Positions 671 to 11,046 of a stretch of 61,771 bases of DNA are shown in pieces. Both the position numbers and the translations under genes were made by a program. The notes beneath the pieces are model-generated. The model worked only from the letters and a program-made list of their open reading frames with translations, did not search any database and was not told the DNA's origin. Source of the DNA: an uncultured Oscillospiraceae bacterium (GTDB taxonomy: Bacteria > Bacillota > Clostridia > Oscillospirales > Oscillospiraceae); assembly GCA_947625815.1 (NCBI GenBank), contig CANQPU010000012.1:1-61771 (forward strand), written 5' to 3'. Each line of letters opens with the position of its first letter. Within the stretch, counting starts at the first letter, position 1.

Positions 671-747
671 TGGTGGACCTGAAGGGACTCGAACCCTCGA
701 CCTCTCGGATGCGAACCGAACGCTCTCCCAGACTGAGCTACAGGCCC
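671..747 (-). tRNA. tRNA-Ala, anticodon CGC
   Basis: On the minus strand a full cloverleaf folds. The acceptor is GGGCCTG against CAGGTCC, including the G3:U70 wobble that is the alanine identity element. The D stem is GCTC/GAGC. The anticodon stem is TTCGG/CCGAG around the loop TTCGCAT, giving anticodon CGC (codon GCG). The T loop is TTCGAGT, and CCA is encoded at 671-673. The gene sits between a serine recombinase (3' side) and two truncated copies of its own 5' end (5' side), which suggests it is used as an integration site. Confidence 0.93.
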
Positions 748-5896: not shown

Positions 5897-7482
5897 TCAG
5901 GATACAGGACCTCTCCCTCCCGGCGCGGGAGGATCGCCCCGCGGCGCTGAAGTCCGCCGCGGCGAAGGCGCTGGGGATCGGCGCCGGGGAGCTTACCGCC
6001 ATCAGGATCCGCCGCCGGTCCGTGGACGCCCGGAAAAAGGGGGATGTGCGGATCATCTACACCGTGGACGTGGGCGTGGAGGGGCGCGAGGAGGCGCTTT
6101 TGAAGCGCCGCGCCGGCGGCCGGATCGGCCCCGCGCCCGCGGAGCGCTATATACCGCCGAAGGCGGCAAGGCCCCCGGAAAGACGGCCGGTCATCGTGGG
6201 CTTCGGCCCCGCGGGCATGTTCGCGGGGCTCATTCTGGCCATGGCCGGCGTGCCGCCCCTGATCCTGGAGCGCGGACAGCCCGTGGAGGAGCGGGCCGCG
6301 GCGGTGGAGCGCTTCTGGGAGACGGGGGCGCTCGACCCCGGATCCAACGTCCAGTTCGGCGAGGGCGGCGCCGGGGCCTTCTCCGACGGCAAGCTCGGCA
6401 CCGGCATCCGGGACCCCCGCGTCCAGTGGGTGCTGGACCGGTTCGTGGAGTTCGGGGCCCGGGAGAATGTGGCCTATGACGCCCGTCCCCATGTGGGCAC
6501 GGACCGGCTCCGGGTGGTGGTGAAAAATCTCCGCGAGCGCGTGGCCGCCCTGGGCGGCGAGGTGCGGTTCGGCGCGCGGATGACGGATCTTGTCCTGAAA
6601 AACGGCCGGGTGGCGGCCGTCCGGGTGAACGACGCCGAGGAGATCGCCTGCGACACGCTGATCCTCGCCGTGGGGCACAGCGCCCGGGACACCTTTGAGC
6701 GCCTTCTTGAGCGGGGGATCCCCATGGAGCCCAAGCCCTTCGCCATGGGCGTGCGCATCGAGCACCCCCAGAGGGAGATCGACCGGGCGCAGTACGGCGC
6801 CTTCGCGGGCCTCAGGACCCTGGGCGCGGCAGACTACAAGCTGGCGGCCCACACCCCGGAGGGGGACGTCTACACCTTCTGCATGTGCCCCGGCGGCTAC
6901 GTGGTGGCCGCCGCGTCGGAGGAGGGCGGCGTCGTGACCAACGGCATGAGCTATTCGGGCCGGAGCGGGGAGAACGCCAACTCCGCCCTGCTGGCGGCTC
7001 TCTCCCCGGCGGATTTCCCCTATCCGGGGGCGCTGGGCGGTATGCGCTGGCAGAGGGAGCTGGAGCGCCGGGCCTACGAGGCCGCCGGAGGCGGGTATTT
7101 CGCCCCGGCCCAGACCGTGGGGGACTTCCTGGGCCGCCCCGCGGCCCCCGCCGTGAGTCCCACCTACCGCCCCGGCGTCAGGGCCCTGGACCTCCGTGAG
7201 GTCCTGCCCCGGCGGATCACCGGGCCCATCGAGCTGGCTCTGCCCGAGCTCGGCCGCCGCCTGGCCGGCTTTGACGCCCCCGGCGCGCTCCTGACCGCCC
7301 CGGAGACACGCAGCTCCTCCCCGGTGCGCATCCCCCGGGACGGGTCCCGCCAGGCCCCCGTCCCCGGCCTCTACCCCTGCGGGGAGGGCGCCGGCCACGC
7401 CGGAGGTATCAGCTCCGCCGCCGTGGACGGGATGGCCACCGCCGAGGCGGTCCTGGAGGCCCTGGGCGCGCGCCCGGAGTAG
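5893..7482 (+). CDS. FAD-dependent dehydrogenase, COG2509-like
   Basis: A 529-residue predicted flavoprotein. The first about 90 residues form a small alpha/beta domain, then VIVGFGPAGMFAGLILA gives the FAD-binding GxGxxG at about residue 100. Next comes SNVQFGEGGAGAFSDGKLGTG, a hallmark of this uncharacterised dehydrogenase family. The C-terminus, PCGEGAGHAGGISSAAVDG, supplies the second FAD contact. The ATG overlaps the stop of the upstream oxidoreductase, so both are made from one transcript. Reaction unknown. No membrane segment was noted, so it is probably cytoplasmic. Confidence 0.82.
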   Translation: MIRIQDLSLPAREDRPAALKSAAAKALGIGAGELTAIRIRRRSVDARKKGDVRIIYTVDVGVEGREEALLKRRAGGRIGPAPAERYIPPKAARPPERRPVIVGFGPAGMFAGLILAMAGVPPLILERGQPVEERAAAVERFWETGALDPGSNVQFGEGGAGAFSDGKLGTGIRDPRVQWVLDRFVEFGARENVAYDARPHVGTDRLRVVVKNLRERVAALGGEVRFGARMTDLVLKNGRVAAVRVNDAEEIACDTLILAVGHSARDTFERLLERGIPMEPKPFAMGVRIEHPQREIDRAQYGAFAGLRTLGAADYKLAAHTPEGDVYTFCMCPGGYVVAAASEEGGVVTNGMSYSGRSGENANSALLAALSPADFPYPGALGGMRWQRELERRAYEAAGGGYFAPAQTVGDFLGRPAAPAVSPTYRPGVRALDLREVLPRRITGPIELALPELGRRLAGFDAPGALLTAPETRSSSPVRIPRDGSRQAPVPGLYPCGEGAGHAGGISSAAVDGMATAEAVLEALGARPE

Positions 7483-7797
7483 CCCCCGCCGCTTTTTTAC
7501 AGAAAAAACCGGGATTTTCCGTTTTGATACAGGATCCTGTCCGTTTCGATTCCGCGCCGGATTACAGTTTTGCCCAAAGCCGGGCAAGACATTGCGGGGG
7601 AGAGGGAGCGGGATATGATCATAGCGGACTGCGAGCGGGATCGGATCCGCGCCGACGAGTATCTGGACGGACTGCGGGGCGCGCCCTTTGTGCAGTCGTC
7701 CCGGTGGGCGTCCGTAAAGATCGGGTGGAGGCGCGAGCTGGTCCTGGCCGAGGGGGCCGGCGGGCGCGTCACCGGGGTCATGAGCCTCCTGATCCGG

Positions 7798-7832
7798 CCT
7801 GTCCCGGTCTTCGGGAACGTGATCTACTGCCC
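7798..7832 (+). repeat. 35-bp direct repeat, left copy
   Basis: Starts CCTGTCCCGG and ends CTACTGCCC. It is identical over 35 bp to 8852-8886 and encodes PVPVFGNVIYCP of the FemAB-like protein. Confidence 0.97.
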
Positions 7833-8851
7833 CCGACAAGCCATTTGCTCGCTGTGCGATCCAGACCGGGACGGGAGCGGTGGAGATCTCCGTGCTTCCA
7901 ATCCTTCCAGGAGAGCCCTCCACGCCCTTCCTACCCCCCCTTCCACACCCTCTCTACACCCCCTTCATGGGGGTCTTCCTGCCGTCCCGCTCGCCTCTCC
8001 ATTGTACCCCGGGGGTCAAGGGTAAAGGGCCGTGGGCCCCGCTTCGCGCCCTTGACTCCCCGGGGGCCGGCCGTCTCGGCGTCGCAGAACGACGCCGGAA
8101 AGGAGTGGTCGAAATGGCCAGCGCGAACATCAGCCAGAAGACGAGATACGGGGTGTACAAGCGGGATGGGTTCCAGTGTGCCCTCTGCGGGTGCCACGAT
8201 GGGCTTCAGATCCATCACGCCATACCCCGCGGGAAAGGGGGTGGAAACACGGTGGAAAACCTGATCACGCTCTGCGACAAATGCCACGCCCAAGCCCATG
8301 GGATCGATTGCTACCCGGGCGTGGTAGATCAGCGGGACGTCCAGCACGCCTGTGTGGAGTACCTCGCCGATATGTACACGACGGTTGAGCGGGACGGGAC
8401 CACGAAGACGTGGGACCCGTACGCCTGATCCGCCGGGCCCCGCCGCCCCGGTCCCCGGGGCGGCTCCCCCCGGGCGTGTCGGCCCGTGGCTCTGTCGCGC
8501 CCCGTGCCGGCCCGCTCCGGGGGGCGGCCTTGCGGCCTTGCGGGGCCCGCCTTCGGGTTACTTCGATATCGCGACGCCGGTACTTTAGGATACGTTAATA
8601 GTCGTGGCCGGGTGGGGTCAACACTCACTGTTGATCCGTCAAGCGGTTGCGCGCGCCGGCTCCCCCCTCGGCTTCGCGCCCCCCCGGCGCGCGCGTCTCC
8701 GCGGCGTGCCCCGGCGTCGCCCCTGCCCTTCGGGCGCTGGCGCCGCTCGGGCCCCGTCGCTCAAATTGCCCTGCGGGGGAGTCGCGCCCGCCGCCCGTTA
8801 GATGGGGGGAAGGTTGGCGGCGGGCGCGGTATCGTTCGGTTGTCGCGTCTT
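7833..8851 (+). mobile_element. 1,019-bp HNH-endonuclease insertion, unclassified
   Basis: The sequence between the two 35-bp repeats has no place in the FemAB-like protein and differs from it in make-up: very GC-rich and full of hairpins. It carries one 104-codon HNH gene at 8114-8428. Structured flanks include GTCAAGGG/CCCTTGAC within 8006-8066, GGCGTCG/CGACGCC directly before the ORF ribosome-binding site, GCGCGCGCCGG/CCGGCGCGCGC around 8649-8700 and TCAACA/TGTTGA near 8620. The ends show only a weak inverted match (CGACAA at 7834-7839, TTGTCG at 8840-8845). No transposase, reverse transcriptase or intron core was recognised. It could be an intron-like or homing element, or a non-autonomous transposon with a long target duplication. 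Confidence 0.75.
8114..8428 (+). CDS. HNH endonuclease
   Basis: A 104-residue protein starting MASANISQKTRYGVYKRDG. It contains a zinc-knuckle HNH domain: CALCG at about residues 22-26, LQIHHAIPRGKGG with the catalytic His pair at about 34-35, NTVENLITLC and DKCHAQAHG at about 49-62. So C-x2-C, HH, N and C-x2-C-H are all present. The start was set by AAAGGAG at 8098-8104; the frame is open further upstream but lacks a better start. It lies alone in the insertion that splits the FemAB-like gene. HNH enzymes of this size occur in homing elements, phages and restriction systems; here a homing or mobility role is inferred from context. The C-terminal 40 residues are not recognised. Confidence 0.85.
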   Translation: MASANISQKTRYGVYKRDGFQCALCGCHDGLQIHHAIPRGKGGGNTVENLITLCDKCHAQAHGIDCYPGVVDQRDVQHACVEYLADMYTTVERDGTTKTWDPYA

Positions 8852-8886
8852 CCTGTCCCGGTCTTCGGGAACGTGATCTACTGCCC
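8852..8886 (+). repeat. 35-bp direct repeat, right copy
   Basis: Identical to 7798-7832. Recombination or splicing between equivalent positions removes 1,054 bp and restores the FemAB-like frame (tgc cca cgg ggg). Confidence 0.97.
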
Positions 8887-9710
8887 ACGGGGGCCGGTGT
8901 GCGGTCCCGGGGACGGGGACGCGCTGGCGCAGCTGACCGCCGGGGCGCGGGAGGTCATCAGAAGATACAGGGCCGCGGGGATCCTGGCCGAGCCGGACAT
9001 CCGGGAGACGGACACGGAGACCCTGCCGCTTCTGGAGGCCCTGGGCTGGCGCCGCCGGACGCCCCGGGACGTCTACGACACGGTCCAGCCCCGGTCCCTC
9101 TTCCGCCTGGATCTGCGGGGGAGGACGGAGGAACAGCTCCTTGAGGGCCTCCACAAAAAGCTCCGCTACAACATCCGCCTGGCCCAGAGGCGCGGGGTGG
9201 AGATCCGGGAGGGAGGACGGGAGGACCTGGGGGAGCTCTCCCGCCTCATGGCCGTCACCGCCCGGCGGGACGGGTTCCGTGCCCGGCCGGCGGAGTATTA
9301 CCTCCGGCTCTGGGATGCCCTGGGGGAGGAGCGGGTCACGCTGCTGCTGGCCCGGGCCGGCGGCGAGACCGCGGCCGCGGGGCTCTTCGTCCATTACGGC
9401 GGCCGGACCTGGTATCTCTACGGAGCCAGCGGCAACGCCCACCGGGAGGACATGCCCTGCCACCTCCTCCACTGGGAGGCCATCCGCCGCTGCGTGGCCC
9501 GCGGCGACGATGTCTACGATCTGCGGGGCTTTTTAGAGCGGGAGGACGACGGCAACGGCCTCTACCGCTTCAAGCGCCAGTTCGGCGGCGAGCTCGTCCG
9601 CCTCGTGGGGGAGCTGTATCTCACCGATACGCCCCTCCGCTACCGGCTCCTTCGGGCCGCGGAGCGCCTCTACCTGCAAACCGCGCCCCGGCTCTGCCGA
9701 CGATAAAAAA

Positions 9711-9750
9711 CAAGCGCCCCCGGACCGCGAAAGCGGTCCGGGGGCGCTTG
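9711..9750. terminator. Bidirectional intrinsic terminator
   Basis: An 18-bp perfect stem (CAAGCGCCCC... with a gaaa loop, 9711-9728/9733-9750), preceded by AAAAAA and followed by GCTTTT. It separates the convergent FemAB-like gene and metY. Confidence 0.93.
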
Positions 9751-9768
9751 GCTTTTACGGGAGGCCTC

Positions 9769-11046
9769 TCACACCTTCTCCAGGGCCTGGGCGATGTCGG
9801 CGACGAGGTCGGCGGCGTCCTCCAGACCGCAGGACATGCGCACCAGATCCGGGGTGATGCCGGCGGCCGCCAGCTCCGCGTCGTTCATCTGCCTGTGGGT
9901 GGCGGAGGCGGGGTGGAGGCAGCAGGTCCGGGCGTCGGCCACGTGAGTCTCGATGGCCCCCAGCTTCAGGTGCTTCATAAACTCCTCGGCGGCACTCCGC
10001 CCGCCCGTAAAGCCGAAGCTGACCACACCGCAGGTGCCGTTGGGCATGTACTTTTTGGCGGCGTCGTAATATTTGTCCCCCTCCAGCCCCGGGTAGATGA
10101 CGAACCGGATCTTCGGGTGGTTTTTCAGGAATTTGGCCACGGCCAGGCCGTTTTCGCAGTGGCGCGGCATCCGCACGTGGAGGCTCTCCAGGCCCAGATT
10201 CAGGAGGAAGGCGTTCTGGGGAGACTGGATGGAGCCGAAGTCCCGCATGAGCTGGGCGGTGCATTTGGTGATGAAGGCCCCGCCCTGGCCGAACTTCTCG
10301 GCGTAGGTGACGCCGTGGTAGCTGTCGTCCGGGGTGGTGAGGCCGGGGAATTTGTCGGCATGGGCGAACCAGTCGAATTTCCCGGAGTCCACGATGGCCC
10401 CGCCCACGCCGGCGCCGTGCCCGTCCATATATTTGGTGGTGGAGTGGGTGACGATATCGGCGCCCCACTCAAAGGGCCGGCAGCCCACGGGCGTGGCGAA
10501 GGTGTTGTCCACGATGAGGGGCACGCCGTGGGAGTGGGCCGCCCCGGCAAATTTCTCAATGTCCAGCACCGTCAGAGCGGGGTTAGCGATGGTCTCGCCG
10601 AACACGGCCTTGGTGTTGGGCCGGAAGGCGGCGTTCAGCTTCTCCTCGGAGCAGTCCGGGGGGACGAAGGTGAACTCCACCCCCATCCGCCGCATGGTGA
10701 CGTGGAAGAGATTGTAGGTGCCGCCGTAGATGGTGGAGCTGGCCACCACATGATCGCCGCAGCCGGCGATGTTGAACACCGCGTAGAAGTTGGCCGCCTG
10801 CCCGGAGGAGGTGAGCATGGCCGCCGTGCCGCCCTCCAGCGCCGCGATCTTGGCCGCCACCATGTCGTTGGTGGGGTTCTGGAGCCGGGTGTAGAAGTAG
10901 CCGCTCTCCTCCAAGTCGAAGAGCCTGCCCATCTGCTCGCTGGTGGAGTATTTGAAGGTGGTGGACTGGATGATGGGGATCTGCCTGGGCTGGCCGTTGC
11001 CCGGCGTGTAGCCGGCCTGGACGCATTTTGTACCGATTCCGCTCAT
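9769..11046 (-). CDS. metY: O-acetylhomoserine aminocarboxypropyltransferase/cysteine synthase family
   Basis: A 425-residue PLP enzyme of the Cys/Met-metabolism class. It would make homocysteine from O-acetylhomoserine and sulfide. It shows IIQSTTFKYST near the N-terminus, YTRLQNPTND, the PLP-phosphate region SSGQAANF, and the PLP lysine in THSTTKYMDGHG. The length matches MetY rather than the shorter MetB/MetC. The ATG at 11044-11046 has GAGGTG seven bases upstream; a longer frame reaching 11100 lacks one. It lies 47 bp after the GH4 gene on the same strand, so it may be read through from the araC-GH4 transcript, though the functions look unrelated. It ends at the shared bidirectional terminator. 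Confidence 0.9.
   Translation of the reverse strand: MSGIGTKCVQAGYTPGNGQPRQIPIIQSTTFKYSTSEQMGRLFDLEESGYFYTRLQNPTNDMVAAKIAALEGGTAAMLTSSGQAANFYAVFNIAGCGDHVVASSTIYGGTYNLFHVTMRRMGVEFTFVPPDCSEEKLNAAFRPNTKAVFGETIANPALTVLDIEKFAGAAHSHGVPLIVDNTFATPVGCRPFEWGADIVTHSTTKYMDGHGAGVGGAIVDSGKFDWFAHADKFPGLTTPDDSYHGVTYAEKFGQGGAFITKCTAQLMRDFGSIQSPQNAFLLNLGLESLHVRMPRHCENGLAVAKFLKNHPKIRFVIYPGLEGDKYYDAAKKYMPNGTCGVVSFGFTGGRSAAEEFMKHLKLGAIETHVADARTCCLHPASATHRQMNDAELAAAGITPDLVRMSCGLEDAADLVADIAQALEKV

Follow-up and report, generated by a model that had tools for sequence, protein, structure and literature searches.

How a kilobase of DNA with a single gene, encoding a small HNH endonuclease, could come to lie inside another gene between two long copies of the same target sequence is the question raised by a locus in an uncultured Oscillospiraceae bacterium (GenBank assembly GCA_947625815.1). 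The locus is found in contig CANQPU010000012.1, whose positions 1 to 61,771, read on the forward strand, are referred to here as the window. Within it, positions 7833-8851 form an insert of 1,019 bp (69% GC) in a femAB-type gene, bounded by identical 35-bp direct repeats. Sequence comparison identifies this insert as a member of a mobile-element family. An explanation with roughly even chances of being right is that these elements insert by target-primed copying in the geometry of long interspersed nuclear elements (LINEs), with the HNH protein nicking the target and either RNA or single-stranded DNA serving as template.

The two repeats, at 7798-7832 and 8852-8886 (all window features discussed here are on the plus strand unless stated), agree at 35/35 positions, or over 38 bp if one mismatch is allowed, and are spaced 1,054 bp apart. 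An exact match of this length has a negligible probability of arising by chance (approximately 1e-13 expected in 2000 x 2500 positions). The sole HNH gene of the insert (8114-8428; family alignment A2) encodes 104 amino acids and matches PF01844 (E 7.8e-10). The interrupted femAB-type gene is broken near codon 73 into a 5ʹ part (7615-7832) and a 3ʹ part (8887-9706); PF02388 is matched strongly by the 3ʹ part (E 1.5e-39) and weakly by the 5ʹ part alone (E 0.43). Scripted joining of the flanks gives a continuous reading frame that runs from the 5ʹ part on into 8887 and the following positions and aligns without gaps over the junction to the uninterrupted femAB-type genes of two genomes of the same genus (G001 and G013). 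Both of these empty sites hold a single target copy and no insert, and therefore the 35-bp repeat in the window is a target duplication. The original prediction, made from the window's letters, had described the 1,019-bp insert with its single 104-residue HNH gene, the identical 35-bp copies, the femAB-like host gene, and the exact joining of the frame upon deletion, all of which were confirmed. Its term "hairpin-filled" applies loosely: 24 inverted-repeat pairs are present in 7000-9800, but many fall beyond the bounds of the insert. Within its own genome, which is 96% complete, the window element has one DNA match, the window copy.

The search for relatives and empty sites that the original prediction had proposed yielded the HNH gene in 24 related genomes, in addition to the two empty femAB sites. 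Of these genomes, 22 were found by protein search and two more by a model of the base-paired stem described below. Searching 34 genomes of the genus with the HNH protein gave seven further genomes at E <= 6e-36; nine weaker matches in the genus (E 4e-13 to 5e-4), which look like other HNH proteins, entered the repeat check only. Profile A1 matched 4/394 genomes of the order (E <= 1e-18) and 14/300 of the family (E <= 1e-15). The order, family, and genus sets overlap and combine to the 22 genomes, with members weaker than the E limits left uncounted.

Direct repeats of at least 35 bp, ranging from 35 to 93 bp, flank the element in 18/24 genomes (17/22 protein-found and 1/2 stem-found), and element size across the family is 1.0-2.2 kb. 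In the 17 protein-found elements, the repeats measure 35, 37, 40, 40, 41, 44, 45, 49, 52, 52, 54, 63, 65, 67, 71, 75, and 93 bp, with one mismatch within each of the 41-, 49-, 71-, and 75-bp repeats; the values of 37 bp (G491) and 54 bp (G648) are lower bounds, and the 67-bp repeat (G484) is uncertain, as it sits among tandem repeats. A target sequence is common to G017 and G022, and the repeats of all other elements differ in sequence. The stem-found element of G1130 has a 73-bp flanking repeat and a diverged HNH gene. In the six genomes without a repeat (6/24), a contig ends 127-866 bp away from the HNH gene or stem. Five of them are protein-found (G002, G031, G596, G550, and G669; 5/22), with the contig end 127-702 bp from the HNH gene. 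The same HNH region without repeats, a pattern that the original prediction had named as speaking against it, was absent from the 17/22 protein-found loci with both ends visible; the stem-found G1102 carries a diverged HNH gene and no repeat, but it has only 866 bp of contig on the left and may be cut by the contig end.

Such repeats are rare in the controls. Among generic viral HNH loci, taken as the best 80 of 372 relatives found with the profile in viral contigs, a repeat of at least 20 bp was present in 3/80 and of at least 30 bp in 1/80. Other HNH loci had repeats of at most 13 bp (14/14, with shorter flanks examined), and random positions in the window gave none of at least 20 bp (0/447). 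A single-protein search of viral contigs found no match, and the genome_contigs collection held one distant match, from Nitrospirae, which had no repeat, though just 285 bp was available on its left. Matches in phage (87 records) and plasmid (60 records) sequences were all below 60% identity. Four phylum-wide matches besides the window, with open frames of 388-443 amino acids, were judged not to be family members.

Some genomes hold more complex arrangements. In G401, two copies of the element (4 differences in 1,540 positions) lie amid three identical 65-bp repeats, an arrangement expected from regeneration of the target upon insertion, or from unequal recombination. In G1130 (L209), approximately 120 bp of the left flank, before the 73-bp repeat, are similar, with gaps, to the right end of the element itself and perhaps stem from an earlier insertion into this site; a search of one strand of this contig revealed no second HNH gene. 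G031 carries two diverged copies (L029 and L024), each cut by a contig end, with a common 35-bp flank sequence that is also like the G011 target and, by eye, REP-like (resembling a repetitive extragenic palindrome).

Of the encoded proteins, only HNH occurs in all 17 compared elements. The second most widely shared frame encodes a small protein in four of them (G491, G635, G484, and G401; loci L068, L071, L074, and L065). Three accessory small proteins (from G401, G635, and G598) had no Pfam match above the cut-off, and a DNA-binding role for them is a guess. No transposase gene or recombinase is common to the 17 elements, and since no frame besides HNH occurs in all 17, they share no reverse transcriptase of their own; nor was any polymerase recognized in the element. 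An HNH-only element with a duplication far beyond transposase lengths, as originally described for the window, recurs in its relatives at other targets. Seven residues (C22, C25, H34, H35, N49, C54, and H58) are invariant in the 22 HNH sequences, and C57 is nearly so; the nuclease therefore looks intact and is presumably active. The nearest NCBIfam profile for the domain is IscB (E 4.9e-14), matched over residues 7-62 only and at 52 bits versus a cut-off of 175. The nearest PDB sequence is likewise IscB, with the HNH domain of a group II maturase further off (6me0, E 4.4e-8). In PADLOC, the 22 HNH proteins match the HNH parts of several families (DpdF in 22/22, best 5.9e-12); identity as a defense system was rejected, and these matches are read as a shared HNH domain only.

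The two ends of the element behave differently. Left ends were compared in nine element pairs, which overlap in members. Two pairs, G012/G000 (score 25) and G329/G542 (score 19), were excluded for being weak or out of register, and in 6/7 informative pairs (alignment scores 24-124), the ends were offset by 0-3 nt, the exception being G481/G542 with a difference of 51 nt. Right ends differed in all five pairs with a score of at least 80 (by 9, 27, 27, 35, and 220 nt), and in four weaker pairs, they were 17-262 nt apart. In the window, a small hairpin, TCGC-TGT-GCGA (7849-7859; by eye), lies at the nearly precise left end, and counterparts in G012, G006, and G017 (TTGC/GCAA or TCGC/GCGA; also by eye) occupy the equivalent position. 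A GC-rich hairpin (8783-8828, inverted repeat I13) lies close to the right end and is followed by a variable tail (8829-8851), a region in which related elements terminate at differing points.

Target bases differ between the two edges as well. The last duplicated base beside the left end is G in 13/17 sites, C in 3/17, and T in 1/17 (binomial p 5e-5, before allowing for 37 target columns); without G484, G648, G491, and G011, it is G in 10/13 (p 4e-4). The strongest target column, at the left-end edge, carries 0.89 bits versus at most 0.42 bits at the other edge. In G1130, which is outside the 17-site count, the last repeated base is A. A preference for hairpins in the target, striking by eye, was rejected: neither 14 left-end-junction windows (Kolmogorov–Smirnov p 0.70) nor 13 other-edge windows (p 0.56) showed an excess of folding over random local windows.

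Some targets are repeated sequences. The G648 target (L067) is present at high copy, with 31 places, its own site included, that match the full 105-base query at 100% identity (41 matches), and the G491 target (L189) has 58 matches. In G491, three further contigs with differing left flanks continue across the identical target bases and enter the same element, of which they cover the first 62 bases. A single nucleotide of a repeated sequence was therefore used for insertion more than once; the right ends of these three copies were not found in the assembly. Contigs that stop exactly at the repeat edges in G491 and G648 were considered as excision polymorphism, a reading that was rejected, as such stops come with repetitive targets. 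Of the 17 sites, six were assigned to genes; the femAB-type gene of the window is the only recognized within-gene insertion, with three others at gene ends and two at gene starts. The duplication reaches the gene end, leaving one gene copy whole, at rplL (ribosomal protein L7/L12) in G329, at an FAD oxidoreductase gene in G481, where the stop codon spans the duplication edge and is re-formed (by eye), and at a gene without a Pfam match in G598. Of the two gene-start cases, the duplication in G542 is located where spoIIID begins, and that in G401 covers the beginning of a deaminase gene.

Upstream of the HNH gene lies a conserved base-paired stem (8001-8069 in the window), with GTCAAGGG (8015-8022) and CCCTTGAC (8049-8056) as its inner arms. 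The pattern of these arms within a longer stem was matched in 15/17 elements, in G401 with one changed base, and was not found in G080 and G532. Covariation was assessed in 12 aligned short-loop members, picked from the 22 for their short loops, against 500 shuffles; the inner eight pairs hardly vary and are uninformative in this respect. Six of 15 pairs are changed on both sides with pairing kept, a number equalled in 10/500 shuffles and also reached by a one-column slide. Clearer signals came from the cells with compensatory changes, which numbered 19 (0/500 shuffles), from the covariation score of 0.265 (0/500), and from the pairing of 91.6% of stem cells versus 81.1% in shuffles (0/500) and 29-48% when slid; further pair types numbered 11 (38/500). 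A covariance model of the stem (R1) gave seven matches at E < 1e-15 in the 34 genus genomes, all followed by the HNH gene or its start, and two of the seven are copies outside its training set. R1 did not detect three members with long loops (G017, G022, and G011), and its six genus matches in the range E 8e-4 to 8e-3 include the other strand of a known stem. Among 400 genomes of the family, it found 14 places at E <= 1e-6, comprising 12 known and two new ones (G1130 and G1102), both preceding a diverged HNH gene. Of the structured RNA suggested by the original prediction, the base-paired stem with its compensatory changes stands, whereas its action as RNA is something we infer. Downstream of the HNH gene, a leftward consensus promoter (TTGACA-17-TATAAT-like) is present in 4/17 elements (L019, L020, L021, and L022) and in weaker form in G080 and G484. 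Hairpins were seen by eye after it, and together the promoter and hairpins may perhaps constitute a small RNA gene.

Long and variable duplications need either two distant strand cuts or priming followed by a later second cut. In the proposed mechanism, the HNH protein would nick the top strand after the junction G, and the freed 3ʹ end would prime copying of the element, beginning at the left end. Copying would end at varying points on the right side, the other strand would be cut unspecifically 35-93 bp upstream, and fill-in on both sides would generate the long duplication. Target-primed copying is favored because a base-biased cut at the nearly precise end is paired with an unbiased edge at the variable end, a pairing that is predicted by target-primed insertion and not by simple capture of a finished DNA copy.

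Several points weigh against this mechanism. No polymerase is recognizable in the element. A reverse transcriptase acting in trans was considered and rejected, RVT_1 being found in only 9/22 host genomes and undetectable in 13/22, the window genome included (these genomes are incomplete); therefore, either the present copies are old or copying would depend on a different kind of host enzyme. The HNH nick at the target is a putative step, any transcript of the element is likewise hypothetical, and the leftward promoter would not give a full-length template. The junction G could be a base of the element met in the target by chance or preference. In G542, the left end is extended by 51 bases, among them a 24-bp duplicate of the 3ʹ coding end of the HNH gene (L072), which look as if copying had switched template. 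Finally, the repetitive targets of G491, G648, and G011 and the tandem-repeat-bounded G484 are weaker evidence.

Rather unlikely, though the strongest of the alternatives, is DNA capture, in which HNH proteins, possibly as paired nickases, would nick the strands 35-93 bp apart and existing element DNA would be joined into the gap and the overhangs filled, with no target-primed copying. Long duplications would then follow from the nuclease alone, and no reverse transcriptase, undetected in most host genomes, would be needed. However, capture by itself gives no account of one nearly precise and one variable end, and it leaves the source of the DNA copy unexplained; no excision enzyme is common to the elements.

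It is improbable that a circular form entered the chromosome by site-specific or homologous recombination, with the repeats as attachment sites and a recombinase supplied in trans. This route would fit the three duplications that reach a gene end (rplL in G329 and the targets of G481 and G598), as is often the case with island attachment sites, as well as the two copies amid three identical repeats in G401 and the use of repeated sequences as some of the targets. Yet the repeats differ between elements except in G017 and G022, so that no common attachment core is seen, and no recombinase is common to the elements.

Very improbable is an RNA-guided HNH element of the IscB, IshB, or HEARO kind (obligate mobile element-guided activity, OMEGA). 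The IscB-close HNH domain and the paired stem beside the gene are likenesses to IscB, IsrB, and IshB (HEARO), and a 14-nt inner stretch (7863-7876) shows 93% complementarity to 8851-8864, where the right repeat begins. In contrast, RuvC is a part of IscB and IsrB and an N-terminal PLMP part belongs to IshB, whereas the 104-amino acid protein, with HNH from residue 7, has neither a RuvC nor a PLMP-like part, and the element has no known omega RNA. The proposed covariance search against Rfam gave no match, group I and II introns and HEARO included, although an RNA of an undescribed type is conceivable. Guide-like matches to the own target were no better than to other targets in 12/13 elements (G401 was left out, its flank being the second copy, and G484, G648, and G491 were also outside this comparison), which argues against the RNA guidance raised by the original prediction; the exception, G000 (13.5 versus at most 11), owes its score to a GC-rich 18/21 stretch in the flank outside the repeat. 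Moreover, IS605-type insertion makes, to our knowledge, no target duplication, in contrast to the long ones found here. A self-splicing group I or II intron or derived intron-like element, as the original prediction had also envisaged, is scarcely credible: the window insert does lie in a coding gene whose frame is continuous without the insert and one repeat, but introns make, as far as we know, no target duplication, Rfam holds no intron match for the element, and the window femAB-type gene is the only recognized case of internal interruption among the 17 sites.

Elsewhere in the window, at positions 98-747, a 176-amino acid open reading frame and the tRNA gene next to it (674-747, minus strand) possibly mark one boundary of an integrated element; by eye, the frame is similar to large serine recombinases in their C-terminal part.

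The classification of bacterial transposable elements follows their recombinase, and target duplications in the known ones run from a few to approximately 30 bp. A classical insertion sequence has a transposase gene, whereas the 17 elements share HNH only. Free-standing HNH homing endonuclease genes are similar in being small and selfish, with HNH the one shared protein; however, they copy into a cognate allele, whereas the present elements enter unrelated sites with 35-93 bp duplications. Group II introns are similar in the endonuclease domain of their maturase (6me0) and differ from the present element, which has no recognized reverse transcriptase or intron match and duplicates its target. 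LINEs, or non-long-terminal-repeat elements, duplicate their target to variable lengths, are precise at one end and variable at the other, and have a biased nick at the precise end. The present family is alike in its variable duplications, in its one precise and one variable end (G542 excepted), and in a sequence-biased putative nick at the precise end. Unlike LINEs, it resides in a bacterial host, has no recognized reverse transcriptase, and makes duplications that are longer than is typical of LINEs. The pattern fits no bacterial mobile-element class tested, with LINEs, introns, insertion sequences, and OMEGA systems taken partly by their general definitions. No such element was described in the literature covered by the search, of which preprints and most subscription journals were outside the scope.

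The family thus combines the absence of a shared recombinase or polymerase with 35-93 bp duplications and with one nearly fixed and one variable end. Tentatively, it may represent a class of bacterial mobile DNA in which insertion proceeds by target-primed copying similar to that of LINEs, an HNH nickase is the sole dedicated protein, and the polymerase is borrowed from the host. If the proposed mechanism is true, it would constitute a minimal, HNH-only route for the insertion of a kilobase of DNA and would raise the question of which host polymerase copies the element.
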